From Porphyrobacter sp. (GTDB lineage: Bacteria > Pseudomonadota > Alphaproteobacteria > Sphingomonadales > Sphingomonadaceae): 64,000 nt of DNA. The position numbers were made by a program, and so were the translations under genes. Positions 17,729 to 34,089 of this stretch are shown here, one piece after another; position 1 is the first letter of the stretch, and each line of letters begins with the position of its first letter. Where the stretch lies: positions 1 through 64,000 of the forward strand of contig JAPZUC010000011.1 in NCBI GenBank assembly GCA_027533455.1, read 5' to 3'. Below the pieces are notes generated by a model. It made no database searches. It saw only the letters and a list, made by a program, of their open reading frames with translations, and had not been told where the DNA came from.

Positions 17729-19923
17729 CTGACCGCGCCCCGGCGCAGCGACAGCTTCGGGACGGCCCCGGCCTCCAGCGCGCCGCCGCGCCCCGAAAGG
17801 GAGGGGTTGGTCATGAAATAACGGTGGCAGTTGAAGGCCTTGCCCGCCTCCACCTCGACCCGCGAATAGCTGCCATCGGGGTGCAGCCACCAGCTCTGCT
17901 CGCTGTCGAGCATATTCGCGAGCAGCACCTGCTGGAGCACCTGATCGTGGACCGTGCGGTTGAGAATGGGGATCAAGGTCTCCACCCGGCGGTCAAGATT
18001 GCGGCTCATCATGTCAGCCGAGGCAATGAACACCGCCGCGTGCGCACTCGGCAAGGGGTGCCCGTTGGCAAAGGCATAGATGCGGCTGTGTTCGAGGAAG
18101 CGGCCGATCACCGATTTGACGCGGATGTTCTCCGAAAGGCCCGCGATGCCCGGCCTCAGACAGCAGATGCCGCGCACCACCAGTTCCACCTGTACCCCCG
18201 CCTGGCTTGCCGCATAGAGCCGGTCGATCACGCCTTCGTCGGTCAGCTGGTTGCACTTCATCCAGATCGCGGCGGGCTTGTCGGCCTGCGCATGGGCGAT
18301 CTCGGCATCGATACGGGCGTAGATTTCTTCGCGCAGGTCGATCGGCGCGATATGCAGCCGTTCAAGCGCGTGGGGTTCGACATAGCCGGTGACGAAATTG
18401 AACATTTTCGCCACGTCGCGCCCTAACTTGGGATCGGCGGTAAAGAAACTGAGGTCAGTGTAAACCCGCGCGGTGACGGGGTGGTAGTTGCCGGTGCCAA
18501 GGTGGCAATAAGTGCGGAAATTGTCGTTCTCGCGCCGCACCACCATCGCGACCTTGGCGTGGGTCTTCCAGTCGGTGAAGCCATAGATCACCTGCACGCC
18601 CGCCCGTTCGAGCTTGCTCGCCCACTGGAGATTCTGCTCCTCGTCGAATCGCGCCTTCAGTTCCACCACCGCGGTGACAGATTTGCCCGCTTCGGCCGCC
18701 TCGATCAGCGCGCCGATCACGGCCGATTGGGAGCCGGCACGATAGAGCATCTGCTTGATTGCGACCACATCGGGATCGGCGGCTGCCTGCCGCAGAAAAT
18801 CGACCACCACCTCGAAGCTTTCATAGGGGTGATGGACGATGATGTCCTTCTCGCGGATCGCCGAGAAGGCATCGCCGTCATGCTCGCGGATGCGTTCGGG
18901 AAAGCGCGGGGAATAGGCCTCGAACTTGAGATCGGGCCGGTCTTCGCGGACGATTTCGGCAAGGCCATCGACCCCGATCATCCCGTCGGTCTTGATCAGC
19001 GCCGCCTCGTTGATACCGAGCTGGTCGAGCAGAAGGGCTTCGGCAGCGGGATCGAAATCCTCATCGATTTCGAGCTGGATCACCTGGCCCCGGCGGCGGC
19101 GCTGGATCGCGCTGCGGAAGGTGCGCACCAGATCCTCGGCCTCTTCGGCAATTTCAAGGTCGCTGTCGCGCAGCACCCGGAACAACCCATCGCCCTGCAC
19201 CGTAAATCCCGGGAACAGCTCGCCGGCATAACGCTGGATGAGCCGCGCGATCGAGATATACAGCGCGCCATTCGCCCCCGTCACATCGTCAGGCACGCGC
19301 ACGAACCGGGGGAGCGCGCTGGGGATCAGCACCATCTCGATCAGCTGTTCACCAGTGGCATTGCGGGTCAGGGTGAAGAGCAGGCCGAGCCCCTCGTTCT
19401 GGACGAAGGGAAAGGGGTGCGCCGGGTCCAGCGCCTGCGGAGTGATGATCGGCAGGATCTCGTTGAGGAAATAACGCTTGAGCCACGTGTGCGCTTCCGG
19501 GCTGACGCGCTCCTCGTCGGCGACGTGGATGTTGGCTGCGGAAAGTCCGACGCGCAGCTCGCGCCAGATGTCCTGCTGCTGCTGGGACAGGTCGGCCAGT
19601 TTCTCGCGGATGGCGGCAAGCTGCTGGGTGGGGCTACGCCCGTCGATCGAGGGGGTATCGAATCCGCGCTGCACCTGCCCGACAAGTCCGGCGACGCGGA
19701 TCATCATGAACTCGTCGAGATTGCTGCCCGAAATCGACAGGAAGCGCAGACGCTCAAGCAGCGGATAGGCCGCATTGCAGGCCTCGGCCAGCACGCGCTG
19801 ATTGAACTGGAGCCAAGAGAGCTCGCGGTTGAAATAGGGCGATTCGTCAGGGGCAAGCTCGGCCATCTGCACGGCACCCGCCTGCGCGGACGCGTCTTCG
19901 CTCCCAGTCGGTGACGTGCTCAT
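17725..19923 (-). CDS. ppk1: Polyphosphate kinase 1
   Basis: A 732-residue PPK1. The N domain starts YFNRELSWLQFNQRVLAEA (about residues 30-48), with the LDEFMMIRVAGL helix. The catalytic half carries MLYRAGSQSAVIGALIEAA, the phospho-histidine block CHLGTGNYHPVTARVYTDLSFFT near residue 472, and the second active histidine region GRFLEHSRIYAF near 605. It reversibly makes polyphosphate from ATP. It is followed by ppx in an ATGA overlap and lies 103 bp downstream of virB11 on the same strand with no obvious terminator. Read-through from the PHO-box-preceded vir operon is therefore possible. Confidence 0.96.
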   Translation of the reverse strand: MSTSPTGSEDASAQAGAVQMAELAPDESPYFNRELSWLQFNQRVLAEACNAAYPLLERLRFLSISGSNLDEFMMIRVAGLVGQVQRGFDTPSIDGRSPTQQLAAIREKLADLSQQQQDIWRELRVGLSAANIHVADEERVSPEAHTWLKRYFLNEILPIITPQALDPAHPFPFVQNEGLGLLFTLTRNATGEQLIEMVLIPSALPRFVRVPDDVTGANGALYISIARLIQRYAGELFPGFTVQGDGLFRVLRDSDLEIAEEAEDLVRTFRSAIQRRRRGQVIQLEIDEDFDPAAEALLLDQLGINEAALIKTDGMIGVDGLAEIVREDRPDLKFEAYSPRFPERIREHDGDAFSAIREKDIIVHHPYESFEVVVDFLRQAAADPDVVAIKQMLYRAGSQSAVIGALIEAAEAGKSVTAVVELKARFDEEQNLQWASKLERAGVQVIYGFTDWKTHAKVAMVVRRENDNFRTYCHLGTGNYHPVTARVYTDLSFFTADPKLGRDVAKMFNFVTGYVEPHALERLHIAPIDLREEIYARIDAEIAHAQADKPAAIWMKCNQLTDEGVIDRLYAASQAGVQVELVVRGICCLRPGIAGLSENIRVKSVIGRFLEHSRIYAFANGHPLPSAHAAVFIASADMMSRNLDRRVETLIPILNRTVHDQVLQQVLLANMLDSEQSWWLHPDGSYSRVEVEAGKAFNCHRYFMTNPSLSGRGGALEAGAVPKLSLRRGAVR

Positions 19924-20026: not shown

Positions 20027-21037
20027 TCACACCAGATCACGGCTCTCCGCGATGGCGGTGATCCCGCGCTTGCCATTCGCGTCGCGGCCCAGTTGGACGA
20101 TCACGTCGATCACGCTGGCGGCATAAGCGATGGTGTCCGCGCGGGTGAGGCCGATGCCGGTCTGCATCACCATCAGCGAAAGCTGTTCGAGCGCGCCGCG
20201 CAAGCTGTTGGCGTGGATGGTCGAGAAGCTGCCCGGATGCCCAGTGTTGATCGCGCGCAGGAAGCTGACGCTTTCCGCGCCGCGCAGCTCGCCCAGCACG
20301 ATGCGGTCGGGGCGCAAGCGCAGGGCGGCTTGCAGCAATTCGTTGGCGGTGACCTTGGCCTCGCCCAGCTCGCCCTTGACCGCGACCAGACCGACCGCGT
20401 TGGCGCCCGGGAATTTAAGTTCAGGCGTGTCTTCCACCAGCACCACACGCTCCTGCGGCGGGATTTCGCCGAGCATCGCGTTGAGGAAGGTCGTCTTGCC
20501 CGTACTGGTCCCGCCCGAGATCAGGATCGTGCGCCGTGCCCGGATCGCGGCGCGCAGATAGGCGATCGGCTCGCTTTGCGGATCGGGCAGATCGAACTGA
20601 GCCTCGCCCATGAGCGGCCCGCTGTCATAGGCATCGAGCGGCAGGTCGAGGCGGCGGTGGCGGCGGATCGCCATGACCCAGTGCTTGCGGCTTGCGGGCG
20701 GCCCGCAGAACTGCACGCGCGCGCCATCGGGCAGGGTCGCGCCGAGCAAGGGATGCTCGCGGTTGATGCCCTGATGCGAGACGCGGGCGACCTGCTCGGC
20801 GAGGCGCTGCACCAGCCGGTCGTCAATCTCTGGCGTCTCGATGCGCTGCATCCCGGGACGCGCGGCGTCCTCGATCCACACCTCGCCCGGGCGGTTGACC
20901 ATGATCTCGGTCACAGTGTCGCGGTCGAGCCAGCGGCGGAACGGGGCGAGGTAGGCGTCGAGATAGACGGAACGCTCCGCCGGGAGCGGCATGGCCGCGC
21001 CCTCCTCTGCCGCAAGCCGGTGGATATCCGCGCTCAT
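20027..21037 (-). CDS. virB11: VirB11-type secretion ATPase
   Basis: A 336-residue hexameric traffic ATPase. It has an N-terminal domain with VTEIMVNRPGEVWIED, Walker A GGTSTGKTTFLNAML (about residues 172-186), Asp box VLVEDTPELKFP, Walker B RPDRIVLGELRGAES and His box TGHPGSFSTIHANS. It powers pilus assembly and substrate transfer with VirB4 at the inner membrane. It is the last vir gene, 8 bp after virB10, and ppk follows after 103 bp. Motifs are complete, so the enzyme should be active. Confidence 0.95.
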   Translation of the reverse strand: MSADIHRLAAEEGAAMPLPAERSVYLDAYLAPFRRWLDRDTVTEIMVNRPGEVWIEDAARPGMQRIETPEIDDRLVQRLAEQVARVSHQGINREHPLLGATLPDGARVQFCGPPASRKHWVMAIRRHRRLDLPLDAYDSGPLMGEAQFDLPDPQSEPIAYLRAAIRARRTILISGGTSTGKTTFLNAMLGEIPPQERVVLVEDTPELKFPGANAVGLVAVKGELGEAKVTANELLQAALRLRPDRIVLGELRGAESVSFLRAINTGHPGSFSTIHANSLRGALEQLSLMVMQTGIGLTRADTIAYAASVIDVIVQLGRDANGKRGITAIAESRDLV

Positions 21038-21045
21038 CGCAAGCG

Positions 21046-22179
21046 TCAGCCGGCGGTGCTGAAGTCGAGATCGCGCGCGGTGAAGACGCGGATCGGCTCG
21101 CCCATGCGCACGCGGATCGTGGGGCTGATCGTCCCTTGCGATTGCACGGCAGAATTGGCCGCGCCCTGCGCGCCGCCTGCCACGATCACGCCGCCGATCC
21201 CGCCGGTCGCCACCGCCCCAAGGCCGCCCACCACCGACAGCAGCAGGCCCGATCCGAACCGCTGGAGGAAGTGGCTGTTGACGTCACCCTCCAGCCCCGT
21301 CGCCCCGTCAAAACCGACCGCAGGCGAGGCGAGGCTGACCGATACGCCATCCGGGCGGATCAGCCGCGTCCAGATCACGTAGGCGCGGCGCTGGCCCTGC
21401 TGCACACCCGCCTGATACTGGCCGATGAGGCGCGAGGAGCGCGGGATCAGGATGCGCTTGCCATCGAAACTGCGCACGTCGTGGCTGACGACGGCGCGGA
21501 CGTAGCCCGGGACATCAGTGTTGATCGCGGTTTCGAGGATCGCGGGGATCAGCGTGCCCTCGGTCACGGTGGTCGAGGGGTTCACCATCGCGCGGGCCTG
21601 CGCAGGCGCGCCGCCCACCCCGCCGACGCGGCTGGCAAAGTCCGCTGCGCCGCCCCCGCCCAGAGGCGCGCCGGGCGTGCCGGGAGGCACCGCGCCCGGC
21701 GTCTCGAGGCCCCGCACGCTGCGCGCGGTGCTGGAATCGAAGGTCAAGGTCGGGTTGGCATAGGGATTGGCCGCCTGGCCGGGCATTACGCCCGGGTTGT
21801 TGGCATAGACCGCTGCGGGCGCGGGGTCGGGCTGCGGCATCAGCGGCACCGCGCCGGGCGCAAGGCTCGGATCCGTCACCGGTTCCACGGGTATCGGCAC
21901 CGCGGCCACAGGCGGCGGCGCCACTGCGGGATTGCCGATCCCCTGCGGCTCGTCCGTGCGCGCGGCGTTCATTGCCCAGAAGGTCACCGCGCCGAGCAGT
22001 CCGACAACCGCGACCCCGGCAGCAAGCTGGAACCCTTCGCCCTTGGCCCTGCGATCAGTGACCCCCGGGAAAGTCGAACGGCTTGCAAGATCAATGATTT
22101 CCGCCGATTCCCGCTCACGCGGATCGCCGGCATCTCCGCCCTCGCCCTTCTTCGGCGGCAAACGCATGGCCAGTCGCAT
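21046..22179 (-). CDS. virB10: VirB10 family core-complex protein
   Basis: A 377-residue VirB10/TrbI protein starting at the ATG at 22179 (MRLAMRLPPKK). It has a cytoplasmic tail with acidic and basic patches, one transmembrane helix at about residues 52-70 (LAAGVAVVGLLGAVTFWAM), a long proline-rich periplasmic linker (about 80-185), and the conserved C-terminal barrel with ILETAINTDVPGYVRAVVSHDVRSFDGKRILIPRSSRLIGQY. It spans both membranes and couples ATPase state to the outer-membrane channel. Its start overlaps the virB9 stop as TGATG. The track's longer ORF extends into virB9 and is not real there. Confidence 0.94.
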   Translation of the reverse strand: MRLAMRLPPKKGEGGDAGDPRERESAEIIDLASRSTFPGVTDRRAKGEGFQLAAGVAVVGLLGAVTFWAMNAARTDEPQGIGNPAVAPPPVAAVPIPVEPVTDPSLAPGAVPLMPQPDPAPAAVYANNPGVMPGQAANPYANPTLTFDSSTARSVRGLETPGAVPPGTPGAPLGGGGAADFASRVGGVGGAPAQARAMVNPSTTVTEGTLIPAILETAINTDVPGYVRAVVSHDVRSFDGKRILIPRSSRLIGQYQAGVQQGQRRAYVIWTRLIRPDGVSVSLASPAVGFDGATGLEGDVNSHFLQRFGSGLLLSVVGGLGAVATGGIGGVIVAGGAQGAANSAVQSQGTISPTIRVRMGEPIRVFTARDLDFSTAG

Positions 22180-23003
22180 CAGTTGGATCCCTTCTGAGAT
22201 TTTGGCGTATCGAGCCCCGCCTGACGCGCAGTCGGGCGCATCGGGCCGGTGTTGGTCAGCGTCGCACTGTCGCGGCCCGAGCGCAGGATCACCTGCGGCG
22301 GAACCCCTTCGACCACCACGGTGTCGCCGCGCACGGTGTAGTTGACCGGGCCTTCGTCGCCGTCCGCATTGGTGATGAGAATGGCCGGAATTGCAATGCC
22401 TTGCGGCCAACTCAGGTAGAGCGTGTCGCCATCGTCGTAGGCGCGCGAGGGCAGCAATGCCGGTTTGCCCGCGCTGGCCCATGCAAAGTTCAGCTGTGCC
22501 GGATCGCTGACCACGTCAGTGCGGACTGCCCCGGCTGCGCCCTCCGGAGCGGTTTCCGCGCGCAGAGCCAGCGCCTCGGCCTCGGCAAGAGCGGCGAGGC
22601 GGGCTTCCTCGGCCTTCTTCTCAAGCTCCGGATAGCGGAATTGCATGACGTAAAGTGCTGAATTACGAGGAGAAGCGACCAAGTCAAAGAGATAGGTGCG
22701 CTTGTCGGTCACCACAGTCATGTTGGTCCGCGCGACCGGATCGAGCGGCTTCACGAACAGGATCGACTGCGCCTTGTTGGGCTGCACCTGCCAGGCAGCC
22801 GAATCCCCGATCGCGACATTCTCGATCACCTCGTCGGGGGCGAACTTGATGGTCGTCTGGACCTTGGCCATCCCGTCGATCCGCACCACGGCATTCTCAT
22901 TGAAAACCAGCGTTTTGAGGCGGTTATCCTGCGCGGCAAGGGGCATAGCCAAGCCGAGGGCACAGGCCAGCAGAGGCGCGGCGAAGAGCACGGCGCGGGT
23001 CAT
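22179..23003 (-). CDS. virB9: VirB9 family core-complex protein
   Basis: A 274-residue exported protein. Signal peptide ends near LAAQ (about residue 25). The N-terminal domain contains VVRIDGMAKVQTTIKFAPDEVIENVAIGDSAAWQV and the LFVKPLDPVARTNMTVVTDKRTYLFDL block (about residues 75-105). The C-terminal domain carries PSRAYDDGDTLYLSWPQGIAIPAILI. With VirB10 it forms the outer part of the secretion channel. A VirB7 lipoprotein normally bonds to it, but I find none in the operon. The ATG at 23003 overlaps the virB6 stop (ATGA), and the stop overlaps virB10. Confidence 0.93.
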   Translation of the reverse strand: MTRAVLFAAPLLACALGLAMPLAAQDNRLKTLVFNENAVVRIDGMAKVQTTIKFAPDEVIENVAIGDSAAWQVQPNKAQSILFVKPLDPVARTNMTVVTDKRTYLFDLVASPRNSALYVMQFRYPELEKKAEEARLAALAEAEALALRAETAPEGAAGAVRTDVVSDPAQLNFAWASAGKPALLPSRAYDDGDTLYLSWPQGIAIPAILITNADGDEGPVNYTVRGDTVVVEGVPPQVILRSGRDSATLTNTGPMRPTARQAGLDTPKSQKGSN

Positions 23004-24211
23004 TGGTAGGTCTCCGGAGGGGGGGATTTGGGGGCCGCGACGGGCTTTGCGGCAGAGGAGGAAGCGGCGGAGCGGAAGCGGTTGCCGATCCCGCGGGTAC
23101 GTGCGGTCGCCGGGGCCAGCGGCGCGATCTGGCCGCTATCCGAAACGCCGCCGACAATCCGCGTTTCACGTGAAACAGTGCCCGCAAGCCCCGTGTCATT
23201 GGCCGCGACGACGGCTTGAAGCGGGGCAAGCGGGGGTCTGGAGGGGGTCAAGGCCGGAGCAAGCGCGGCCATGCCGAGGTTGCGCGCGGCGGCCGGCGCG
23301 ACCTGCTGCACCACCGGCACAGGGCGCGGCGCATCGCCGCCCCGCTCGCGCGCCTTTTCGGGCACGAGGCCGAACACCTGCCAGCCAGCCACCATCGTGC
23401 CGGCAACCTTCAGCGAAAGCAGCATCAGCGCCATATGCACCGCACCCACAAGGAAGAACGCCATCGCCGCCTGCTGGTCGATCTGGCCGGGCACCTTCAC
23501 CAGCGCCGCCAGCACCGGTACCGCCATTTCGAGCATGATCGACCCGCCCAGCACCGCAAACAGCGGCGCCAGCGCCATCATCGTCAGCCCCTTCAGCCAG
23601 CCGGTGAACAGCCCGCGCGTGCCTTCGAACAGCGCCAGCACCACGAAAATCGGGCCGACCGCGAGCAGCAGCGCCAGCGCGATGCGCGATGTCACCAGCA
23701 GGCCCACCGTACCGAGCAGCAGCAGCATCGCCCCCATCCACATCATCCCGGGCGGAGAGAAGGCGCTGATATCTTTGGTGTCCCCGCTCGCCTGCTGGAT
23801 CGCGAGGAACACCACATCGAGCTTCTGCGCGAACACGCCCGTGGCGCTTTCGCCCTGGCTGCCGGTCAGGATGCCCGCGATCTGGTCCGGCCCGCCGATG
23901 AAGAAATTGTAGAACACGGTCGAGAAAGCGACGTAACTGGTCGCAAAGCCAACCACCAATCCCAGCGTGATCATCTTCGGGATCAGCGCGCGCACGCCGA
24001 GGTTCGAGCGGCCCAGCATCAGCGACATGCCGAAGCCCGCGACATAGAGCACCAGCACCAGTGTCAGCGTGAGGGTCAGCTGGCCCTCGGTGCCGAACAG
24101 GCGGTTGAAGGCCTGCTCGCTCATGCCGCTGGCGATGCAATCGACCGCGGTGAGCGCCGCCGAAACGCCGGTGCCCATCGACTGGGCGGCAGAATCGCAC
24201 ACCGCGCTCAT
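23000..24211 (-). CDS. virB6: VirB6/TrbL family inner-membrane protein
   Basis: A 403-residue polytopic protein starting at the ATG at 24211, which overlaps the virB4 stop (ATGA). An N-terminal periplasmic part carries several cysteines and SGMSEQAFNRLFG. Five or six hydrophobic helices follow (TLTLVLVLYVAGFGMSLML, ALIPKMITLGLVVGFATSYVAF, GAMLLLLGTVGLLVTSRIALALLLAVGPIFVVLALF and others up to about residue 270). A long disordered, alanine/proline-rich C-terminal tail of about 130 residues ends the protein. VirB6 lines the inner-membrane part of the channel. The family (TrbL/VirB6) is assigned from topology and the GPIFVVLALFEGTRGLFTGWLK motif. Confidence 0.9.
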   Translation of the reverse strand: MSAVCDSAAQSMGTGVSAALTAVDCIASGMSEQAFNRLFGTEGQLTLTLTLVLVLYVAGFGMSLMLGRSNLGVRALIPKMITLGLVVGFATSYVAFSTVFYNFFIGGPDQIAGILTGSQGESATGVFAQKLDVVFLAIQQASGDTKDISAFSPPGMMWMGAMLLLLGTVGLLVTSRIALALLLAVGPIFVVLALFEGTRGLFTGWLKGLTMMALAPLFAVLGGSIMLEMAVPVLAALVKVPGQIDQQAAMAFFLVGAVHMALMLLSLKVAGTMVAGWQVFGLVPEKARERGGDAPRPVPVVQQVAPAAARNLGMAALAPALTPSRPPLAPLQAVVAANDTGLAGTVSRETRIVGGVSDSGQIAPLAPATARTRGIGNRFRSAASSSAAKPVAAPKSPPPETYQ

Positions 24212-26634
24212 TCGGCCGCCTGCCACATCGTGTCATCATCCGCCTCGCCCGGACCGTCGGGCCAAGGCCTGCCGGTGAGCGCCGGATACCAGGCCGAAGG
24301 CGCATCGCCCACGGCCTCGCGCAGCAGATCGAGCCGCCGCACCGCGCTTTCGCGGCCCGAAAGGATCGTCAGCACTTCGGGCGCACCCGACAGGTCGAGC
24401 CGCACCACCACGCTGGCATCCGGCTGGCGCACAAGGAAGGCGCGGCTGTGCGCAGGCAGGCTGCGGATCAGCGTGAATTCGTGACTGGTGAGCCCGAAGC
24501 CGTCGCAATAATCCTCCGCCCGCGCGCGGCTGTTGGGCATGAACACCATCGTCGCGGTCTGTTCGACCAGCGCGGTCGAAATCTTGCTGTCGAGCGCGTC
24601 GCGCGCGGACTGCGTGGCAAAGCCCACCAGCGCATTGCGCTTGCGCAGGGTCTTGAGCCAGTCGCGGATGCGCGCGGCGAACACGTCGTCGTCCAGCGCC
24701 TTCCAGCCTTCATCGATCAGGATCATGGTCGGCTGCCCGTCCAGCCGCTCGTCGATGCGGTGGAACAGGTACATCATGGTCGGCGTGCGCAGGCGTGGGT
24801 TTTCGAGCAGCGCGGTCATGTCGAAGCCCAGCACGCGGGTGCCGAGATCCAGCCGGTCGACCGCATTGTCGAACAGCCAGGCGTGCTCGCCCTCCCCGAT
24901 CCACGCGCCCAGTCTGTCGGCAAGGTCGCCCGGCGTCGGGCGGCGGCTGCCCGAGAGCAGTTCCTTGAAATGCCGCATCCGCCGCAGGCTCGGGTCGTTG
25001 GCATAGGTCGCATCGACCGCTGCGGAGATGGTGCCAAATTCCTCCGGCCCGTCAGCCTTGAGCAGCACCGCGAGCCATTCGCGCAGGAAGGCGCGGTTGG
25101 CGGGGGTGTCGGGCAGCGACAGCGGGTTGAAGCCGGTCGGCTCGCCCGGATTGATCCGGTCGTAACGCCCGCCGATGCCGCGAATGAACAGCTCCGCGCC
25201 GCGATCCTTGTCGAATAGGATGGTGCGCGGTTTGAACTTCTGCGCCTGCGCGGCGAGGAAGTTCATGACCACGGTCTTCCCCGATCCGCTCGGCCCGATG
25301 ACGCTGAAGTTGCCGAGATCGCCATGGTGGAAGTTGAAGAAGAACGGCGTGGCGCTAGTGGTCTCCAGCAGGGTCACCGCATCGCCCCAGTGGTTGCCGC
25401 TCGCCTGCCCCAGCGCAAAGCCGTGGAACGATCCGAAGCCCGCCATGTTGGCAGACGAGATCATGGCGCGGCGAACGATATATTCCTCGTTGCCGGGGAA
25501 TTGCGCCCAGAAAGCGGGTTCGAGATTGGTATCCTCGCGCACCGCGATCGCGCCGGTATCGGCAAGGGTTGCGGCGCAGGCGGCCATCGCGTCGTCGAGA
25601 GCGGGAAGCGTGGCCGAGCGCACCAGCACGGTCAGATGATGGTCGCCAAAGCCGACCGCCCCATTGCCGAGGCTGTCACGCGCAGCGAGCATGTCGCCGC
25701 GTTCGGCAGCCGCTTCCTCGTCCACCGAGCGCGAGCGGCGCAGCGCGAGGTCGATGCGTTCCTTGGCGGTGGTGCGCTCGTTCGGGGCGTAACTTTCGGT
25801 GACCACCATCTCGAACGGCATGCGCAGCAGATTATCAAGCAGGCCGGGCGAGGTCGCCTCAGGGTAATCCTTGAGGCCGAGGATCGCGGCGAAATCCGGC
25901 GCAGCGCTGCCCCGCAGTTCCATCGCATCGAGCCCGAAAGAGGCGCGGCGATAGGGGAGCATGTGGCCGATGTCGGTGTCAGGCGAAGGGCGGCGCACGG
26001 GCCGCATCTCGCCATTGAACAGCGCTGAGAGCAGCTCCAGCATCTCCGAATTGGTGCCGCTGCCGCCTTGGACCTGATAATCCCCCAGCACCGCTGCGCC
26101 ATATTGCTGGAGCGAGGCGACGAGGCCGGTGATCGCAGCCTTGAGGCTGCGCAGGTCCTTGGGATCCGCCTCAAGCTCGTCCGCGCCCGCACGGCTGAAC
26201 ATCTTGGAGAGGCGCTCCGGCAGCCCCGTCTTGCCGCGCGCGGGGCGGCGGATGAGGGTGACGAACTGGTCGTTGATGAACAGCGATCCGCCTGCCAGCC
26301 GCTGTTTCCAGCGCGCATCAATGTGGCGCGACAGAGGATCGGGAAATTCGGCGTCGAGCTCCACTTCCACCCGGCGGCGGATAACGTGGTGATACATCAC
26401 GAACCGCGCGTCGAGCGTGCTGCGCAGCATCACCTCGCGCGTGGCGGCGTGGGCGTTGAGGGCGTCGCTGTCCTCGGTCTCGAACAAGAGGCCGGGCACC
26501 TGGATCGCGCCCATGACCGAGCCATCGCGCAGCAGCACGGTGTTCTCGTCGATCAGACGGGCATAAGGCAGCCGGTCGCCGACGCGGGCTTCCTTCGCGC
26601 TCCAGGCGGCGGCACCGATCCACTTACGGGGCAT
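24208..26634 (-). CDS. virB4: VirB4 family secretion ATPase
   Basis: An 808-residue VirB4/CagE ATPase. The N-terminal membrane-facing domain covers about residues 1-430. The C-terminal RecA-like domain has Walker A GPSGSGKTVVMNFL (about residue 448), a DxGxE-like block FDKDRGAELFIRGIGGRYDRINPG, Walker B MILIDEGWKAL (about 640) and the QSARDAL motif. It energises subunit and substrate movement and is the most conserved marker of type IV secretion. Its ATG lies 11 bases inside the virB3 end and its stop overlaps virB6. All motifs are intact. Confidence 0.96.
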   Translation of the reverse strand: MPRKWIGAAAWSAKEARVGDRLPYARLIDENTVLLRDGSVMGAIQVPGLLFETEDSDALNAHAATREVMLRSTLDARFVMYHHVIRRRVEVELDAEFPDPLSRHIDARWKQRLAGGSLFINDQFVTLIRRPARGKTGLPERLSKMFSRAGADELEADPKDLRSLKAAITGLVASLQQYGAAVLGDYQVQGGSGTNSEMLELLSALFNGEMRPVRRPSPDTDIGHMLPYRRASFGLDAMELRGSAAPDFAAILGLKDYPEATSPGLLDNLLRMPFEMVVTESYAPNERTTAKERIDLALRRSRSVDEEAAAERGDMLAARDSLGNGAVGFGDHHLTVLVRSATLPALDDAMAACAATLADTGAIAVREDTNLEPAFWAQFPGNEEYIVRRAMISSANMAGFGSFHGFALGQASGNHWGDAVTLLETTSATPFFFNFHHGDLGNFSVIGPSGSGKTVVMNFLAAQAQKFKPRTILFDKDRGAELFIRGIGGRYDRINPGEPTGFNPLSLPDTPANRAFLREWLAVLLKADGPEEFGTISAAVDATYANDPSLRRMRHFKELLSGSRRPTPGDLADRLGAWIGEGEHAWLFDNAVDRLDLGTRVLGFDMTALLENPRLRTPTMMYLFHRIDERLDGQPTMILIDEGWKALDDDVFAARIRDWLKTLRKRNALVGFATQSARDALDSKISTALVEQTATMVFMPNSRARAEDYCDGFGLTSHEFTLIRSLPAHSRAFLVRQPDASVVVRLDLSGAPEVLTILSGRESAVRRLDLLREAVGDAPSAWYPALTGRPWPDGPGEADDDTMWQAAE

Positions 26635-26908
26635 AGGAATTGCACCCCCAACGTTTGAAATTGGGAACGCGCGGGCACTTCGAAACCTTCGTGATCCACA
26701 GGTCGAAAATCCGCGGTTCGCGCAGGGAGGCGAAATAGCCGATCCCGTGCATCACCACCGGCACCGGAATGATCCAGAAGCTCTTGAGGATCAGGAAGGC
26801 GATCGTCGTCACCATCAGGTTGATGATGAAGAAGTTCATCGTCACCCCCGCGAACATTTGCGGGCGCGTGAGCGCGCGGTGGACGGGGTGGCGCAGCAGA
26901 TCGCTCAT
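26624..26908 (-). CDS. virB3: VirB3 family protein
   Basis: A 94-residue inner-membrane protein starting at the ATG at 26908. The family start HPVHRALTRPQMFAGVTMNFFIINLMVTT is clear: basic N-terminus, then a hydrophobic hairpin at about residues 20-60, and a C-terminal part ending RIFDLWITKVSKCPRV. VirB3 works with VirB4 in pilus assembly. The start overlaps the virB2 stop as TGATG and the end overlaps virB4 by 11 bp. The track's 156-aa version runs into virB2. Confidence 0.92.
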   Translation of the reverse strand: MSDLLRHPVHRALTRPQMFAGVTMNFFIINLMVTTIAFLILKSFWIIPVPVVMHGIGYFASLREPRIFDLWITKVSKCPRVPNFKRWGCNSYAP

Positions 26909-27219
26909 CAGCCGGCGACACTCCGGAGGCCGCTTACGAGCGCCGTCGCGCCGAAGATGATGAAGATCCCGATGATGACGGTTGCACCGAAGCGCCAGTT
27001 CATGCGTCCGGTGAGCATCCCGAAACCGATGCCAGCCACCGCCATAACCGCCACGGTGGTCGCGACGGTGCCCAGCAGGGTGCCCTGAAGCCACAGCAGC
27101 GCATTGTTGATCGGGCCGGAGCCCGCGGGATCAGCCCCTTGCGCCAGAGCCGCGCTATGGGCGCCCGCCAGCGCAAATAGAGCGGCGAGACGGGCGGGAA
27201 AACGGAATTGCGACATCAT
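26908..27219 (-). CDS. virB2: VirB2/TrbC family pilin
   Basis: A 103-residue pilin precursor. It has a long signal sequence cleaved near SAALAQG (about residue 27), then two hydrophobic helices, LLGTVATTVAVMAVAGIGFGML and GATVIIGIFIIFGATALVSGL, separated by a short polar loop TGRMNWRF. This is the standard VirB2/TrbC plan. It would form the pilus shaft or channel lining. Start could be the first or second Met (27219 or 27216). It lies 36 bp after virB1 and overlaps virB3. Confidence 0.92.
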   Translation of the reverse strand: MMSQFRFPARLAALFALAGAHSAALAQGADPAGSGPINNALLWLQGTLLGTVATTVAVMAVAGIGFGMLTGRMNWRFGATVIIGIFIIFGATALVSGLRSVAG

Positions 27220-27255: not shown

Positions 27256-27894
27256 TCATTGCCCGGGCACGCGCGAATGGTGGGCGAGCCGGCCCATGAT
27301 GGCGGCAACATACTGCTGTGTCTCGCGGATATTGGGCACCCCGCCAGAACGTTCGACCCGGCCCGGACCTGCGTTGTAGGCGGCGAGCGCCTTTTCCAGA
27401 TCCCCGCCGAAGCGGTCGAGCTGTTCGCGCAGGTAACGCGCGCCGCCTTCAAGATTGGCGAAGGGATCGCGCGGGTCGACGCCCAGATAGCGTGCAGTGC
27501 CGGGCATCAGCTGGGCAAGACCCTGCGCGCCGACGGGCGAGCGCGCGTTCTCGTTCCAGCGGCTCTCCTGCCACACCACCGCTTCCATCAGCGCGGGCGA
27601 GAGGTCGAAGCGGGCGGACAGTTCGGCGATCTTGGCGGCGTAGCGCGGCGGGATAGCGGCGGCGTGTCGCGCGGGATCGGCAATGGCATAGTCGGGGAGC
27701 ACGGGCGCATCGGCCCATTCGGAACCGCTCGCGGTGGCTGCGGCAGGATCGGCCACGGCGAGCTGCCCTGCCCGCGGCCCGGTCACCCAGCGCGCACCAT
27801 CCGCGCCGAGCTCAAGCACATCGGCGCGGGCATCAGCGGCGACCCCGATCGCAGCGGCTACTATCATGACGCGGCACGCCGCGGCGAGAATCAT
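27256..27894 (-). CDS. virB1: VirB1-type lytic transglycosylase
   Basis: A 212-residue exported muramidase. Signal peptide about residues 1-24 (ending ADARAD), a linker, then an SLT domain. The catalytic Glu sits in VVWQESRWNENARSPVGAQGLAQLMPGTARYLGV (about residues 107-140), and the substrate-binding AYNAGPGRV block is near residue 178. It opens peptidoglycan for the secretion channel. It is the first vir gene, and a PHO-box-like sequence lies 40 bp upstream of its ATG, so the operon promoter is probably here. SD-like GGAGGG is about 11 bases before the ATG. Confidence 0.93.
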   Translation of the reverse strand: MILAAACRVMIVAAAIGVAADARADVLELGADGARWVTGPRAGQLAVADPAAATASGSEWADAPVLPDYAIADPARHAAAIPPRYAAKIAELSARFDLSPALMEAVVWQESRWNENARSPVGAQGLAQLMPGTARYLGVDPRDPFANLEGGARYLREQLDRFGGDLEKALAAYNAGPGRVERSGGVPNIRETQQYVAAIMGRLAHHSRVPGQ

Positions 27895-27933
27895 CTCTCG
27901 GCCCTCCAGAAGCTCCCGCTCTGTCTAACCTAA

Positions 27934-27951
27934 ATGACAGGACCGTGACAG
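27934..27951 (-). promoter_or_regulatory. PHO-box-like site upstream of the virB operon
   Basis: The minus strand reads CTGTCACGGTCCTGTCAT: two perfect CTGTCAY heptamers separated by 4 bases, the PhoB-binding layout (7-4-7, 11-bp period). It points toward virB1 and ends 40 bases before its ATG. A clean -10 is not obvious (TTAGAC follows at 5 bases). Confidence 0.7.
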
Positions 27952-28044: not shown

Positions 28045-28446
28045 TTAGTCCCGCCGGGTCAGCTGGGCCGAACGGGCGGCGTCAACGCGGAACTCCCCGC
28101 GCGCCAGCATCGCAAGCGCCTTGCGGGCCAGCCGTCGCGAATCCATGACGTTGCCATCAGCCGTGTCGAGATCGACCGCCTCGTGGCAGGCCATCGCGGC
28201 CTGGAACGCGGCGCGCGCCTTCGCCTCGTCACCCGTATAGGCATAGGCGATACCGAGGTTGATCAGCACCGCGGCATCATGCGGGTCAGCCGCACTCGAC
28301 TGCTCAAGCGTAGCGAGCGCCTGTTCGGCACGCCCGGCAGCAAGCGGCTGCACCGCCAGTTCGGGCGCGTCGGCCAGCATGGAGCCAGCGACCTGCGCCA
28401 CAGGCGTCGCGGAAATCAGGGCAAGTGCAAGAGCGGTAATCGACAT
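28045..28446 (-). CDS. Exported tetratricopeptide-repeat protein
   Basis: A 133-residue protein starting at the ATG at 28446, which has a strong GGAGGAGG Shine-Dalgarno about 7 bases upstream. Signal peptide MSITALALALISATPVAQVAG. One or two TPR-like helical pairs follow: AEQALATLEQSSAADPHDAAVLINLGIAYAYTGDEAKARAAFQAAM (about residues 48-93). The rest is a helix rich in Arg and Ala. TPRs mediate protein-protein contacts. It lies 150 bp upstream of virB1 in the same direction and divergent from the phosphate-type lipoprotein, so it may belong functionally with either. Exact role unknown. Confidence 0.8.
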   Translation of the reverse strand: MSITALALALISATPVAQVAGSMLADAPELAVQPLAAGRAEQALATLEQSSAADPHDAAVLINLGIAYAYTGDEAKARAAFQAAMACHEAVDLDTADGNVMDSRRLARKALAMLARGEFRVDAARSAQLTRRD

Positions 28447-28756
28447 GAGCAGGCCTCCTCCAGGAACAGAGCACATGATGACCCGTAGTCGCGCACGATG
28501 CAATAAAACTGCAACATTGTAATTTTTCTGTAATATCAAATTTCATCATGCTGATTTTAAGATGTAATAATGTGAAATTGCGCCGCACTTCGCCTTTGCG
28601 GCCTTGGTCATATCTGTCTTTCTTCGGTCATAATGCGGCAAGTGACACGCATCTGTCATGATGCAAGAATTCTGTCATGCCCCACCCCTAGCGAGCCCCC
28701 AGCGCATCAAACCACGCGCCTCAATCGATTCTCGGCTCAATAGGGGACCGCTCGCT
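28447..28756. promoter_or_regulatory. 310-bp AT-rich divergent promoter region
   Basis: An AT-rich island (about 28500-28570, e.g. ttgtaatttttctgtaata) lies between the TPR gene and the lipoprotein gene. It includes TTGTAAT-tttt-CTGTAAT at 28517-28534, a weak PHO-like 7-4-7 pair, followed by the stronger heptamer cluster at 28614-28678. The bases after 28680 form the lipoprotein leader. Confidence 0.6.
28614..28678 (+). promoter_or_regulatory. Cluster of PHO-box heptamers upstream of lipoprotein/TonB genes
   Basis: CTGTCTT-tctt-CGGTCAT at 28614-28631 is a 7-4-7 pair. Further exact CTGTCAT heptamers lie at 28653-28659 (11 bp after a GTGACAC) and 28672-28678. All face the lipoprotein gene, whose GTG start is 79 bp beyond the last heptamer. 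Confidence 0.6.
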
Positions 28757-30319
28757 GTGAAAAACATTCAACGCACTATGATTCTGGGATGCAGCCTGGT
28801 CGCTCTGGCCGGTTGCGGCGCGGATGAAATCGTCTCGCCCGGCACCGGCGGCAACATCATCATCAACAACCCGGCCCCCACACCGACCCCGACGCCGACC
28901 CCGACGCCATCCCAGACGCTCGTGACCCCGGCTGCTGGCTGCCCGACCATCAGCACGGCCGCCGGCCTGACCGATGCCGGGACGCTGACCGGTCCGACCG
29001 GCACTTACCGCGTGTGCCGCCTACCCGCGACTTTCACGTCCAACGACACCCTGCGCTACATCCCCGGCCTGCTCTACGAGATCCGCGACCGCGTGAACGT
29101 CGGGACCGACCAGGGCTTCGCCAGCACCAACACCGCCGTAACTCTGACGGTCGAACCGGGCGTGATCACTTACGCCAGCGGGTCGAGCTTCCTCGTCGTC
29201 AACCGCGGCAACCGCATCGCCGCCAACGGCACCTCTGAGCGGCCGATCATCTGGACCAGCCGCGACAATGTGCTCGGCCTCGCCAACGACAACAGCGACC
29301 AGCAGTGGGGCGGCATCGTGCTGCTCGGCCGCGCGCCGGTTTCGGATTGCCGCACCGGTGTGTTCAACACCGCAGCCAACCCCACCGCCAACCCGACCTG
29401 CGAAGGTCAGCTTGAGGGCGCAGCAGTGGCAACCCCGTTCGGCGGCGCCAATGCCGCCGACAATTCGGGCTCGATGCGGTTCAACCAGATCCGTTTCTCG
29501 GGCTTCGAACTGGCGCCGAACAACGAACTTCAGTCGCTCACCACGGGCGGCGTCGGTTCGGGGACGGTGCTCGAAAACATCATGAGCTTCAACAGCTCGG
29601 ACGACGGGCTCGAATTCTTCGGCGGCGGTTTCAACACCCGCAATTGGGCAATCATTGGCGCATCGGACGACTCGATTGATGTCGACACCGGCGCGATCGT
29701 CAACATGGACACCGTTATCGCGGTGCAGCGTTCGACCACGGGTGACCGCCTCATCGAACTCGACTCGCCCAACGTGGCCGACCGCACCCCGTCGAACGCA
29801 ATCCCCCAGACCCGCTTCCAGCTGAACAACTTCACCTTCGTTGCTCGTGCGGGCTCTCCGCAGGTGGTCCAGGCCCGCGGCGGTGCGGCGATCGGCCTCA
29901 CCAACGGCGTGATCCGGGCTGGCACCAACCACTGCTTCCAGATCGACGAGCCGACCACGCTGGCGGCGATCATCGGGGTTGATTCTGTGGTGGGCAACTG
30001 TCCAGCGACCGATCCGGTCCGCGGCGGCGGCGGCGTCACCAACGCCGAAGCTGCAGCGCGCATCAACGCAGGCACCAACAATAACCTCGCCTTCACGATC
30101 ACGTTGACGAACAATGTCGTGAACGGCGCGAACGAAACGGCTGCGACTGCGTTCAACGCCAACACCCGCTCGACCTACTTCCCGACCCGCACCTACATCG
30201 GCGCGCTTCCGGATGCGGCCACGTTCACCTCGCTGTTCCAGAGCTGGACCTGCAACTCGGCGACCCAGAACTTCAACAGTCCGCTGGGTGCCTGCACCTC
30301 GCTGCCTGTCTTCAGCTGA
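28757..30319 (+). CDS. Large surface lipoprotein paired with TonB receptor
   Basis: A 520-residue protein from a GTG start that gives MKNIQRTMILGCSLVALAGC, with the lipobox LAGC at about residue 20. A PT-rich linker (TPTPTPTPTP, about 39-53) follows, then a Gly/Asn-rich domain of about 460 residues with runs such as VTLTVEPGVITYASGSSFLVVNRGNRI and SSDDGLEFFGGGFNTRNWAIIGASDDSID, suggesting a right-handed beta-helix. From memory, homologues of this type in sphingomonads and caulobacters are usually encoded beside a TonB receptor, as here. Function unproven; a phosphate-related role is suggested only by the PHO-like heptamers upstream. The track's start at 28658 lies within the promoter. Confidence 0.75.
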   Translation: MKNIQRTMILGCSLVALAGCGADEIVSPGTGGNIIINNPAPTPTPTPTPTPSQTLVTPAAGCPTISTAAGLTDAGTLTGPTGTYRVCRLPATFTSNDTLRYIPGLLYEIRDRVNVGTDQGFASTNTAVTLTVEPGVITYASGSSFLVVNRGNRIAANGTSERPIIWTSRDNVLGLANDNSDQQWGGIVLLGRAPVSDCRTGVFNTAANPTANPTCEGQLEGAAVATPFGGANAADNSGSMRFNQIRFSGFELAPNNELQSLTTGGVGSGTVLENIMSFNSSDDGLEFFGGGFNTRNWAIIGASDDSIDVDTGAIVNMDTVIAVQRSTTGDRLIELDSPNVADRTPSNAIPQTRFQLNNFTFVARAGSPQVVQARGGAAIGLTNGVIRAGTNHCFQIDEPTTLAAIIGVDSVVGNCPATDPVRGGGGVTNAEAAARINAGTNNNLAFTITLTNNVVNGANETAATAFNANTRSTYFPTRTYIGALPDAATFTSLFQSWTCNSATQNFNSPLGACTSLPVFS

Positions 30320-30365: not shown

Positions 30366-30429
30366 TTGCTGTTTGCGGGCCACGGGCGCCCGCGGTGTTT
30401 CAGAAGACATTCAAGAAGGTTCTTTTTCC

Positions 30430-33186
30430 ATGTCGAAGGTTTCGCGCCTGCCGGGCTTGCTGCTGCTGACCACGTCGCTGTGCTGGCCGGCACTCGTCCA
30501 TGCTCAGGTTTTGGACAATCCCGAGAACCCTGAGGTCCAGGTGGCGGAACCTGTCGATACGGCGGAAGACCCCCAGGTTACGGAGCCCGTCGAGACGCCG
30601 GAAGAGTCTTATGTCGAGCCGGACGTTTCGCTCCCCGGCGGCGGGATCATCGTCACCGGGCGGCGCAACCGCAATCCCGAACGTTCTTCGGGCCAGGTGC
30701 TGAGCGTGCTGTCGGAAGCGGACATCGCCCGCACCGGCGAAGGGGACATCGCAGGCGCCCTCGGGCGGGTCAGCGGGCTTTCGCTCGTCGGTGACGGCCG
30801 GGTGTTCGTGCGCGGTCTGGGTGATCGCTACTCGCTGGCATTGCTAAACGGCCTGCCGCTGCCAAGCCCCGAGCCGCTGAGCCGGGTGGTACCACTGAAT
30901 ATCTTCCCGACCAGCGTGATTTCCTCCGGCCTGGTGCAGAAGACCTATTCGGCCAACTTCCCCGGGGAGTTTGGCGGCGGCGTGATCAACCTGACGACCA
31001 AGGCGATCCCGCAAGACGATTTTCTCGAAGTGAGCATCGGGGCAGGTGGCGACACGCTCACCACCTTCCAGAACGGCCTGACCTATTTCGGTTCGCAGCT
31101 GGACACTTTCGGTTTCGACAATGGCAATCGCGATTTCCCCACTGCTCTGCAGGGCCTGATCGCAAGCGGGACCCGCGTCAACGACGCGCCCGCTGCCGTG
31201 CAGCGCGAATTGGTCGGCCAGATCATGCCGACCAACCTTGTCACGCTGCAGAAGAACAACGTGCTGCCGGCCAACTTCTCCGGCAACATCAGCGGCGGCG
31301 CATCCATCGAAGTCGGGGACGGCAATTACCTGGGCCTGATCGCCACAGCGGGGATCACCAACAGCTGGCGCAACCGTTCGGTCGTCAGCCAGCAGTTCGG
31401 TGATGCCGAGGCCGGTCAGATCATTTTCGATTCGAACACCTTCATCACCGACAACAAGGTGCTGATGAACGGGCTCATCGGGCTCGGGCTCGACATCGGC
31501 GAGCACACCATCCGCTGGACCAATCTCTACATCCGCGACACCCTCAAGACCGCTCGTCTTGCCCGCGGGACCGATGCCTTCACCGATGTCACCCGGCCGT
31601 TCGATTTCCAGACCCAGCAGACCGGCTGGTTCGAACGTCAGCTGATGGACACGCAGCTAGTCGCCGAGTTCGAATTCGACAGGTTCGAGATCGACGTGCG
31701 CGGCGGCTATGCCCGCACGGACCGTGAGGCGCCCTACAACGCTATCGTGCCCTATATCCGCACCAACTTCCCCGTCGAAAGCGATCCCTTCGGCGACAAG
31801 TTCGCGGTCGATGTCGGTGCAGTGGTCGGCGGAACCGAGCGGATTCAGGTCGGGTTCGAAGACCTGACCGAGGAGCTATGGTTCGGCGGCCTGGACGCGA
31901 CCTACGAGCTTACCAGCGACCTCTCGCTGACCGCAGGCTATGCCTATTCGGACACCGCCCGCCGCTCGCTGTCCTTCATCATCCGTCCGCTGCTCCAGTC
32001 CAGCGCAGAGCGGAACACGATCCTGCGCGCCGTCGGCCTGCGGCGTCCCGGAGACATCTTCAACGGTTCGACCCTTGCCACCGACGCCAACGGAGTGGGC
32101 TTCTTCAGTGTCACCGCCTCGGACCCGACCCCTTTCCCCGTCTTCGACGCGGCGTTGACGGTGCATGCCGGCTACGGTCTGGTCCGCTATCGTGCGACCG
32201 ACCGGCTGAATATCGAGGGCGGCCTGCGCCTTGAGGACGGAATTCAGACAGCTGCACCCGATGCCGTGTTCGGTGCGGGTTTCCAACCCAACCCCACACG
32301 CATCGCCAACCAGTATCTGCTGCCCTCGGCCACAGTGACCTGGGAGGTGACCGACGATCTGCAATTGCGCCTCGCCGCATCGCAGACAATCGCCCGCCCG
32401 CAATTCCGCGAGCTGGTCGAGCAGACCTATTTCGATCCGGAATCCAACCGCCGCTTCCGCGGCAACCCGTTCCTGATCGACAGTGAACTGATCAACCTCG
32501 AAGCGCGCGCCGAGTATTACCTCGGAGGTCGGCGCAAGGTGAGCCTTGCCGGCTTCTACAAGGAAATCGACAACCCGATCGAAAACTTCCTGATCACCGC
32601 GCCGGGGATCATCGAGAACAGCTTCGCCAATGCGCCAAGCGCCGAACTCTACGGAGCCGAACTCGATTTCGGCTACAGTTTCGATCTTGCGGACTGGGGC
32701 GGCAGCTTCTTTGAGGCCAAGCAGATTCTAGTGCTGCTGAACTACACCTACGCCAAGTCGAGCATCTCGGTTGGACCTGATGATCTGTCGCCCATTCCGG
32801 GGACTCCGACCCAGCTCGCCAGCCAGCTCTTCGATCAGGGAGCGCCGCTGGTGGGTCAGTCAGATCATGTCGCGAACCTCTCGCTGGGGATCGAGGACAA
32901 AGACAAGGTCCAGCAGGCCACGATCCTGCTGAACTATGCGAGCAAGCGCGTTACCGCGCGCGGCGGTGCGCTGCCCGATGTGGTCGAAGACCCGGGCCTT
33001 ACGGTCGATGTTGTGGCGCGCTCTGAAATCAAGCTGGGCAAGCTGCCGCTCGAGCTGAGTCTGGAGGCGCGCAACATCTTTGGGCGCGACAACTTCGAGT
33101 TCCAGCAGATCAACGGCAACCGCGCGGAGATCAACACCTTCGACGTAGGAACGATCTTCTCGATCGGGCTGAAGGCGAGCTTCTGA
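30430..33186 (+). CDS. TonB-dependent outer-membrane receptor
   Basis: A 918-residue receptor. ATG at 30430 gives a signal peptide ending VHAQ (about residue 25), then an acidic repeat-rich stretch with EPVDTAEDPQVTEPVETPEE. TonB-box-like IIVTGRRNRNPE is followed by the plug (VFVRGLGDRYSLALLNGLPLPSPEPLSRVVPLNIFPTSVISSGLVQKTYSANFPGEFGGGVINLTTK, about residues 135-200), then the barrel ending FSIGLKASF. The plug sequence places it in the sphingomonad/caulobacter group with the GLGDRYS signature. It follows the lipoprotein gene and probably shares its promoter with the PHO-like heptamers. The substrate is not known; a phosphorus-containing compound is a reasonable guess. Confidence 0.9.
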   Translation: MSKVSRLPGLLLLTTSLCWPALVHAQVLDNPENPEVQVAEPVDTAEDPQVTEPVETPEESYVEPDVSLPGGGIIVTGRRNRNPERSSGQVLSVLSEADIARTGEGDIAGALGRVSGLSLVGDGRVFVRGLGDRYSLALLNGLPLPSPEPLSRVVPLNIFPTSVISSGLVQKTYSANFPGEFGGGVINLTTKAIPQDDFLEVSIGAGGDTLTTFQNGLTYFGSQLDTFGFDNGNRDFPTALQGLIASGTRVNDAPAAVQRELVGQIMPTNLVTLQKNNVLPANFSGNISGGASIEVGDGNYLGLIATAGITNSWRNRSVVSQQFGDAEAGQIIFDSNTFITDNKVLMNGLIGLGLDIGEHTIRWTNLYIRDTLKTARLARGTDAFTDVTRPFDFQTQQTGWFERQLMDTQLVAEFEFDRFEIDVRGGYARTDREAPYNAIVPYIRTNFPVESDPFGDKFAVDVGAVVGGTERIQVGFEDLTEELWFGGLDATYELTSDLSLTAGYAYSDTARRSLSFIIRPLLQSSAERNTILRAVGLRRPGDIFNGSTLATDANGVGFFSVTASDPTPFPVFDAALTVHAGYGLVRYRATDRLNIEGGLRLEDGIQTAAPDAVFGAGFQPNPTRIANQYLLPSATVTWEVTDDLQLRLAASQTIARPQFRELVEQTYFDPESNRRFRGNPFLIDSELINLEARAEYYLGGRRKVSLAGFYKEIDNPIENFLITAPGIIENSFANAPSAELYGAELDFGYSFDLADWGGSFFEAKQILVLLNYTYAKSSISVGPDDLSPIPGTPTQLASQLFDQGAPLVGQSDHVANLSLGIEDKDKVQQATILLNYASKRVTARGGALPDVVEDPGLTVDVVARSEIKLGKLPLELSLEARNIFGRDNFEFQQINGNRAEINTFDVGTIFSIGLKASF

Positions 33187-33353: not shown

Positions 33354-34028
33354 TCACCCCAAGTCGAAGACATATCCAAGCGAGCGCACCGTGCGCAGCG
33401 GGTTGCCACCGCCCGCGGCTTTGATCGCGCGGCGCAGGCGGCCGATCCACACGTCCACCGTGCGCTCGTCGATTGCCGGTTCGCGCTTGCCGAGGCCCGC
33501 GATCAGATCCTCGCGAGTCAGCACCCGGTTGGGGTTTTCGGCGAGGAAACGCAGCAGGCGGAATTCGTTGGGGCGCAACACGATCGGCGTCTCGTTCCAG
33601 CGTGCCTGAAGCGAACTCATATCGATAGTGAGCGCGCCCAGTTCATAGCGCCGCGTGGCCTGACGCTCGCTGGTGCGCGATTGCAGCGCCAGCACCCGGT
33701 CGAGCACCGCCGTGCGGGTGAGCGGTCCGACCACATAGTCATCCGCCCCGGCCCTGAGCGCGCGGCGGCGATCCTCGGGGTTGTCCTCTTCCAGCACCAT
33801 CGTGACATGCGCATCAATCGTGCGCGGATCGGCGCGCAAGCGGCGGCACAGTTCCAGTCCGGCCAGTTCGGGCATCACCCAGTCGACAAAGGCCCACATC
33901 GGCCCCTCGACCAGCCGCTTCGGCCCTTCAGGCCCCATCTGGTCGAAGGTGAAACGCCGCTGATCGTGAACGAAATCCTCAAGGCTTTCGCCAAGGTCGC
34001 TCGTCAGGAAGATGTTGATGACGTCCAT
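33354..34028 (-). CDS. OmpR/PhoB-family response regulator with atypical receiver
   Basis: A 224-residue regulator. The receiver (about 1-120) keeps a candidate phospho-acceptor Asp49 in AFVDWVMPELAGLELC. However, the usual acidic pair near residue 10 is only LTSD, the switch Thr region reads TMVLEED, and the invariant Lys of the KPF motif is replaced (ADDYVVGPLTR). The DNA-binding winged helix (about 128-224) is normal: VLRPNEFRLLRFLAENPNRVLTREDLI, then DERTVDVWIGRLRRAIKAAG and RTVRSLGYVF, the PhoB-like form. No histidine kinase gene is adjacent. An 11-bp-periodic PHO-like sequence lies 33 bp before its ATG. It may be a phosphorylation-independent regulator of PHO-type sites, but that is inference. 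Confidence 0.85.
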   Translation of the reverse strand: MDVINIFLTSDLGESLEDFVHDQRRFTFDQMGPEGPKRLVEGPMWAFVDWVMPELAGLELCRRLRADPRTIDAHVTMVLEEDNPEDRRRALRAGADDYVVGPLTRTAVLDRVLALQSRTSERQATRRYELGALTIDMSSLQARWNETPIVLRPNEFRLLRFLAENPNRVLTREDLIAGLGKREPAIDERTVDVWIGRLRRAIKAAGGGNPLRTVRSLGYVFDLG

Positions 34029-34060
34029 TGTGCTGAATGCCCCGCGTTTCCCACCGGCGT

Positions 34061-34089
34061 GGCACAGGCTTGTGACGCGATTGTGACTG
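34061..34089 (-). promoter_or_regulatory. PHO-like triple repeat upstream of the response regulator
   Basis: On the minus strand CAGTCAC, GCGTCAC and CTGTGCC occur with exact 11-bp spacing (34089-34083, 34078-34072, 34067-34061), running toward the regulator's ATG 33 bases on. Each differs from CTGTCAY at one or two positions. This would fit autoregulation. Confidence 0.5.

Follow-up and report, generated by a model that had tools for sequence, protein, structure and literature searches.

The window analyzed here, 64,000 nucleotides from contig JAPZUC010000011.1 of Porphyrobacter sp. (assembly GCA_027533455.1), carries a compact virB operon on its minus strand, with homologs of the type IVA (VirB) secretion proteins VirB2, 3, 4, 6, 9, 10, and 11 encoded behind virB1. 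The operon is part of a conserved gene order consisting of a regulator, a TonB-dependent receptor (TBDR) and a lipoprotein (the latter two divergent), a TPR protein, and virB1-2-3-4-6-9-10-11 (Table 1).

Table 1. Genes and promoter elements of the virB operon and the adjoining module, with positions in the window.
Feature	Position	Strand	Remarks
virB11 ATPase	20027..21037	-	TIGR02788, above cut-off
virB10	21046..22182	-	
virB9	22179..23003	-	Overlaps end of virB6
virB6 (TrbL)	23000..24226	-	
virB4 ATPase	24208..26634	-	TIGR00929, 721 bits
virB3	26624..26908	-	Pfam VirB3
virB2 (TrbC/VirB2 pilin)	26908..27219	-	
virB1 (SLT lytic transglycosylase)	27256..27894	-	Pfam SLT, 1e-24
Shine-Dalgarno GGAGG of virB1	27903..27907	-	Conserved (footprint)
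virB1 promoter core	27918..27933	-	10-nt spacer TTAGGTTAGA, then -10-like CAGAGC
PHO box of virB1	27934..27951	-	CTGTCAC-GGTC-CTGTCAT, 11-bp period
TPR protein	28045..28446	-	Between virB1 and lipoprotein gene; conserved in module
Distal heptamer pair	28517..28534	+	TTGTAAT-tttt-CTGTAAT
PHO box and -10 of lipoprotein operon	28661..28694	+	ATGCAAG-aatt-CTGTCAT-gccccacccc-TAGCGA; same layout in relatives
ElpS-like lipoprotein	28766..30319	+	Beta-helix model, pLDDT 88; synteny
TonB-dependent receptor	30373..33186	+	Paired with lipoprotein; start approximate
PhoB-like response regulator	33354..34028	-	TIGR02154, 146 bits, below 296 cut-off
PHO-like box of PhoB-like regulator	34056..34089	-	CAGTCAC-aatc-GCGTCAC-N10-CACGCC

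Composition of the virB operon and the phosphate module

The operon resembles the VirB/D4 type IV secretion systems (T4SSs) of Agrobacterium and Brucella in that homologous VirB1, 2, 3, 4, 6, 9, 10, and 11 are encoded in the usual order, but differs from them in the absence of VirB5, VirB8, and VirD4, in the PHO box located directly at virB1, and in being a chromosomal core trait of an aquatic bacterial family. No gene for VirB5 is present between virB4 and virB6. The overlap of virB9 with the end of virB6 leaves no room for virB8, and the VirB8 family PF04335 found no match in the whole genome; as a positive control, PF04335 detected VirB8 between virB6 and virB9 in virB loci of 54% identity. 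Genome-wide searches for VirD4 returned only weak partial matches inside 883–887-aa frames located elsewhere than virB, which were taken as FtsK-like. The designation of these genes as a VirB secretion operon in the first-pass annotation is confirmed with respect to the VirB homologs, and is amended in that the system is a non-standard T4SS, missing these three components, within an ElpS-like phosphate module.

The virB6-virB9 gaps are short too in virB loci with 63–67% VirB4 identity (L036–L043), from which the loss of VirB8 may predate the Erythrobacteraceae group. One of these gaps (L041) contains an ORF that matches no Pfam family, and the C-terminal 139 aa encoded by virB6 in the window match none either. 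An incomplete virB set has been described earlier from Citromicrobium, for which DNA import was suggested (PMC3338782), and the Erythrobacter T4SS has been described as part of the core, having coevolved with the genomes, and as adjoining a TonB transporter in one group (PMC4919336); phosphate control goes unmentioned for either set in the available sections of these two reports.

The ORF listed for the ElpS-like lipoprotein starts at 28658, but the true start of this protein lies downstream of that position. Its structural model is a confident right-handed beta-helix; fold searches gave weak beta-helix matches only (best E 3e-3), and no PDB sequence match was found. Its putative homology to Caulobacter ElpS (Cc0170) comes solely from shared synteny, namely the adjoining TonB receptor and the T2SS genes in relatives. 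Versions of ∼950 aa in which the unit is repeated occur in other Sphingomonadales. In addition to the PHO box of the lipoprotein operon, a distal heptamer pair is present, which recurs as nTGTCAY-N4-yTGTAAY in many relatives. The PhoB-like regulator at the far end of the module has a comparable PHO-like site in front of it in 28/28 relatives, in most cases 58–83 nt upstream. Its receiver domain is degenerate and only partly recognized, the usual lysine before proline seems to be missing, and some relatives lack the regulator genome-wide.

Downstream of virB11, ppk and ppx (window 16178–19923, minus strand) are codirectional with virB, both in this genome and in many relatives; the pair is convergent with or upstream of virB in L034, L035, L071, and L072. 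Inclusion of ppk-ppx under the same Pho promoter was considered and rejected: none of 37 loci has a box at ppk, the position of the pair relative to virB varies, and the pair is not counted in the system.

The PHO box upstream of virB1 and its conservation

The virB1 box is formed on the minus strand by CTGTCAC (27951–27945), GGTC, and CTGTCAT (27940–27934), and the virB1 ATG (27894–27892) lies 39 bases downstream of it. Two CTGTCAY-like heptamers with an 11-bp period thus point at virB1, the arrangement that characterizes sites of the PhoB regulon. The double heptamer had been reported in the first-pass annotation, and its strand, coordinates, and period proved exact on re-reading. Scanning of the window returned the virB1 box as the sole match with fewer than two mismatches, and it is also the only exact match to CTGTCAY-N4-CTGTCAY in the 2.88-Mb genome, where the reversed control pattern gave none. 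The low chance probability previously assigned to the element has to be read together with the number of matches expected per genome, ∼0.09 by the same formula, which considers composition alone; uniqueness in the genome is therefore modest evidence by itself, and the strong evidence is conservation.

VirB4 orthologs of ∼73% identity or more are present in roughly one third of 301 family genomes, the named virB loci belonging to Erythrobacter, Porphyrobacter, Qipengyuania, Tsuneonella, Citromicrobium, Altererythrobacter, and others. Restricting the set to VirB4 identities below 93% left 56 non-redundant virB1 upstream regions. Matches of at least 12 of 14 bases were found in 49 of them, compared to 0.12 expected from dinucleotide shuffles, so that the box is indeed kept upstream of orthologous virB1 genes across Erythrobacteraceae, the check that had been proposed together with the original observation. 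The footprint of the 56 aligned regions reads yTGTCAC-N4-nTGTCAT with a near-invariant TGTCAC-N4-TGTCAT core, followed by T, A, and T at columns 20, 21, and 25, C and A at columns 29 and 30, and then GGAGG and ATGATTCT. The 40 bases 5′ of the box contain almost no information, and the box is the sole conserved block 5′ of the promoter core, Shine-Dalgarno sequence, and start codon. Among 26 genus genomes, 13 exact matches were found; 12 are located at virB1 and the 13th upstream of pstS, and the reversed control pattern was absent from all 26.

Control regions from the same loci were scanned in the same manner. No match of at least 12 was obtained at ppk (0/37), vut (0/31), the TBDR gene (0/40), virB4 (0/58), or virB11 (0/54), whereas the scan scored the 49 of 56 regions at virB1 and 22/40 at the lipoprotein gene. 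The ∼0.09 exact matches expected per genome from composition would leave some room for a coincidental match, or for a functionless sequence passed on among close relatives and shaped by mutation. However, the non-redundant loci keep the box while their flanks are randomized, and all five control regions are without a match; we regard this explanation as vanishingly improbable, and a chance match as such is ruled out by the footprint, the shuffles, and the control regions.

For more distant virB homologs (54–67% VirB4 identity), scans in the gene's own orientation gave no box at virB1 or virB2, the best score being 11/14 at most, and these homologs are without a lipoprotein module alongside. 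The trait is therefore specific to the present ortholog group. On the opposite strand, two matches of 12/14 occur in this distant set (L038 and L039).

Within the ortholog group, presence of the box is associated with presence of the module. The box is present at 76/77 loci with an adjacent lipoprotein-TBDR pair and at 11/19 without it (Fisher 4.6e-6); the corresponding numbers for non-redundant loci are 39/40 and 6/12 (Fisher 2.8e-4). The relatedness of the loci reduces the weight of this association: about nine losses of the box were counted, eight of them on module-less rows. Almost all informative independent pairs point in the same direction, and co-evolution of box and module is suggested by these data, with a phylogenetic pair test that does not reach significance (p = 0.125). 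Joint loss of box and module could also come about by physical deletion of neighboring DNA.

Predicted PhoB control and its direction

The genome encodes a PhoB equivalog that scores above the curated cut-off (340 bits, cut-off 296), as do 29/30 genomes of the genus. The pstS promoters of the genus have the form nnGTCAy-N4-nTGTCAy, with a TAG-type -10 after a further 10 nt; the box is found at pstS in most of 28 genus genomes, including the present one, whose pstS promoter reads CCGTCAT-tttc-TTGTCAT-gaaacggtta-TAACAC. The single pstS with an exact match is located downstream of a phosphate-selective porin gene. The proposal that the element responds to PhoB and phosphate thus gains support from its conservation among orthologs, from identical heptamers and spacing at pstS within the genus, and from the encoded PhoB. 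Predicted phosphate (PhoB) control of virB is well supported at the sequence level: with a probability of about 0.8, the 18-bp element is a true PHO box, bound by PhoB, that drives virB1-2-3-4-6-9-10-11 as part of the phosphate-starvation regulon of Erythrobacteraceae. Binding by PhoB and the direction of regulation are what we infer here from an observed site, its observed conservation, and its observed geometry. When phosphate is scarce, PhoR would phosphorylate PhoB, two PhoB units would bind the two heptamers, and RNA polymerase would be recruited to the -10 located 10 nt downstream of the box.

The PhoB-like response regulator encoded in the module is another candidate for the protein that binds the box, in which case virB would follow a module-specific signal. 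In favor of this regulator are its synteny with the module, PhoB as its top match among curated families, and a similar box at its own promoter. However, the complete genomes G324, G043, and G123 yielded no ortholog of this regulator, yet they keep the virB1 box with scores of 14/14 in L162, 13/14 in L056, and 12/14 in L058, and the same box is present at pstS, which is a classical target of PhoB. Binding by the local regulator is accordingly disfavored, and we consider it very unlikely.

The geometry downstream of the box bears on the direction of regulation. At virB1 the second heptamer is followed by N10-CAnnGG, and the pstS, lipoprotein, and PhoB-like regulator promoters likewise have 10 nt between the second heptamer and the -10. 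The virB1 -10 itself is unusual, CAnnGG as compared to TAG at pstS, and an alternative -10 reading, TAGGTT, lies within the spacer. Because of this unusual -10 and of a second TAnnnT directly after the box, repression was retained as a rival: PhoB would bind but repress virB in phosphate starvation, the TAnnnT abutting the second heptamer being the true -10. The footprint offers T20 (51/56), A21 (38/56), and T25 (47/56) in favor of such an element. On the other hand, C29 (54/56) and A30 (53/56), within the -10-like element, occupy the positions where the pstS, lipoprotein, and regulator promoters have TA or CA, and this distance of 10 nt from the second heptamer is the one usually seen in activation. 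Repression by PhoB is thus improbable, and activation is the preferred reading.

In the first-pass annotation, phosphate control of a type IV secretion operon was not known as described. There is, however, some precedent for a VirB system that receives a phosphate input, since the virG P1 promoter of Agrobacterium responds to phosphate starvation (PMC4285021). That input is indirect and passes through the VirG regulator, whereas here the PHO box is on virB. Literature searches retrieved no report of a PHO box or of PhoB control on a virB operon. PHO-box promoters and VirB T4SSs are each of a known kind; their combination was not found described.

Relation to type II secretion and possible roles of the virB system

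Homologs of the lipoprotein gene in other Sphingomonadales are arranged in the order lipoprotein-TBDR-gspC-D-E-F, and the same arrangement beside gsp is seen for one homolog from another order of the class (L259). The same kind of arrangement is known from Caulobacter crescentus, where elpS (cc0170), the TonB receptor gene cc0171, and gsp adjoin one another, as they also do in Sphingomonas alaskensis (PMC2996285). Production of ElpS is restricted to phosphate starvation (PMC2996285), and the Caulobacter type II secretion system (T2SS) is a member of the PhoB regulon (PMC11208175). The module described here shares with the Caulobacter locus a lipoprotein and TBDR next to a secretion system and, as predicted here, phosphate-starvation control, but the secretion genes alongside encode a VirB T4SS and have a PHO box of their own.

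Genomes of the family tend to have one machine or the other. Among the 301 genomes, 104 contain the virB ortholog group and 148 contain GspD, and both are found in only two (G081 and G228), compared to 51 expected without correction for phylogeny; about 50 genomes have neither. GspD is absent from the present genome by genome search. The exclusivity is largely clade-structured, with within-genus contrasts limited to g31 (two virB, two gspD) and g39 (one virB, five gspD), inside each of which the two remain exclusive. In a genomic survey, T2SS and T4SS were both overrepresented in Qipengyuania (PMC9241875), a result that is not reconciled with the present GspD search.

The best reading of these observations is that a PhoB-induced, reduced T4SS replaced, or works instead of, an ancestral Pho-regulated T2SS. 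The virB operon is one arm of a conserved phosphate module that also comprises the PhoB-like regulator, the TonB-dependent receptor, the ElpS-like lipoprotein, and the TPR protein. The lipoprotein-receptor pair beside the T2SS in sister lineages, together with the T2SS-or-virB pattern, points to a T2SS-like role for virB: the system may export phosphate-scavenging proteins across the outer membrane or display them there, or it may remodel the surface, thereby doing the job of the T2SS in relatives, although we place this role somewhat short of even odds. Since VirD4 is missing, substrates would have to come from the periplasm, in the manner of Ptl, and not by one-step injection of DNA or protein. 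In its full form, in which a VirB T4SS shed of VirB8, VirB5, and VirD4 functionally replaced the T2SS in a PhoB-controlled ElpS module and exports from the periplasm, the proposal is put forward tentatively.

Bordetella Ptl, a T4SS without VirD4 and VirB5, exports its substrate from the periplasm in two steps (PMC12857230). The virB system likewise has no coupling protein and no VirB5, and Ptl provides a precedent for Sec-exported substrates. Unlike the present system, Ptl keeps a VirB8 homolog (PtlE), and it is not known to be phosphate controlled.

The main functional rival to export is DNA import, either for competence or for use of DNA as a phosphorus source, with which phosphate control would fit. 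VirD4 and VirB5 are also missing from the Helicobacter ComB DNA uptake T4SS, and import is the role proposed for the incomplete Citromicrobium set (PMC3338782). However, ComB keeps VirB8 and is without VirB11 (PMC12857230), the reverse of the present set; competence genes were not seen in the module; and the partner in the swap is a protein secretion system. We consider import unlikely and favor export.

Most work on T4SSs concerns their part in conjugation and infection. In free-living aquatic bacteria, a T4SS that is conserved, inherited vertically, and apparently coupled in its expression to phosphate starvation suggests a nutritional role for a simplified machine. If the replacement is true, one secretion machine gave way to an unrelated one while the nutrient switch stayed the same. 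The T2SS-or-virB pattern makes the role of a widespread orphan virB operon directly testable.

Elsewhere in the genome, two single-mismatch matches to the box pattern represent one overlapping triple-heptamer site on contig 15 (G000 193890–193918; L002 1501–1529), which counts in favor of the PhoB reading. The triple heptamer is located between a TonB-dependent receptor gene and a metallophosphoesterase-glycosyltransferase gene pair. This pair resembles the PlcP/Agt lipid-remodeling pair, which replaces phospholipids and is phosphate regulated.
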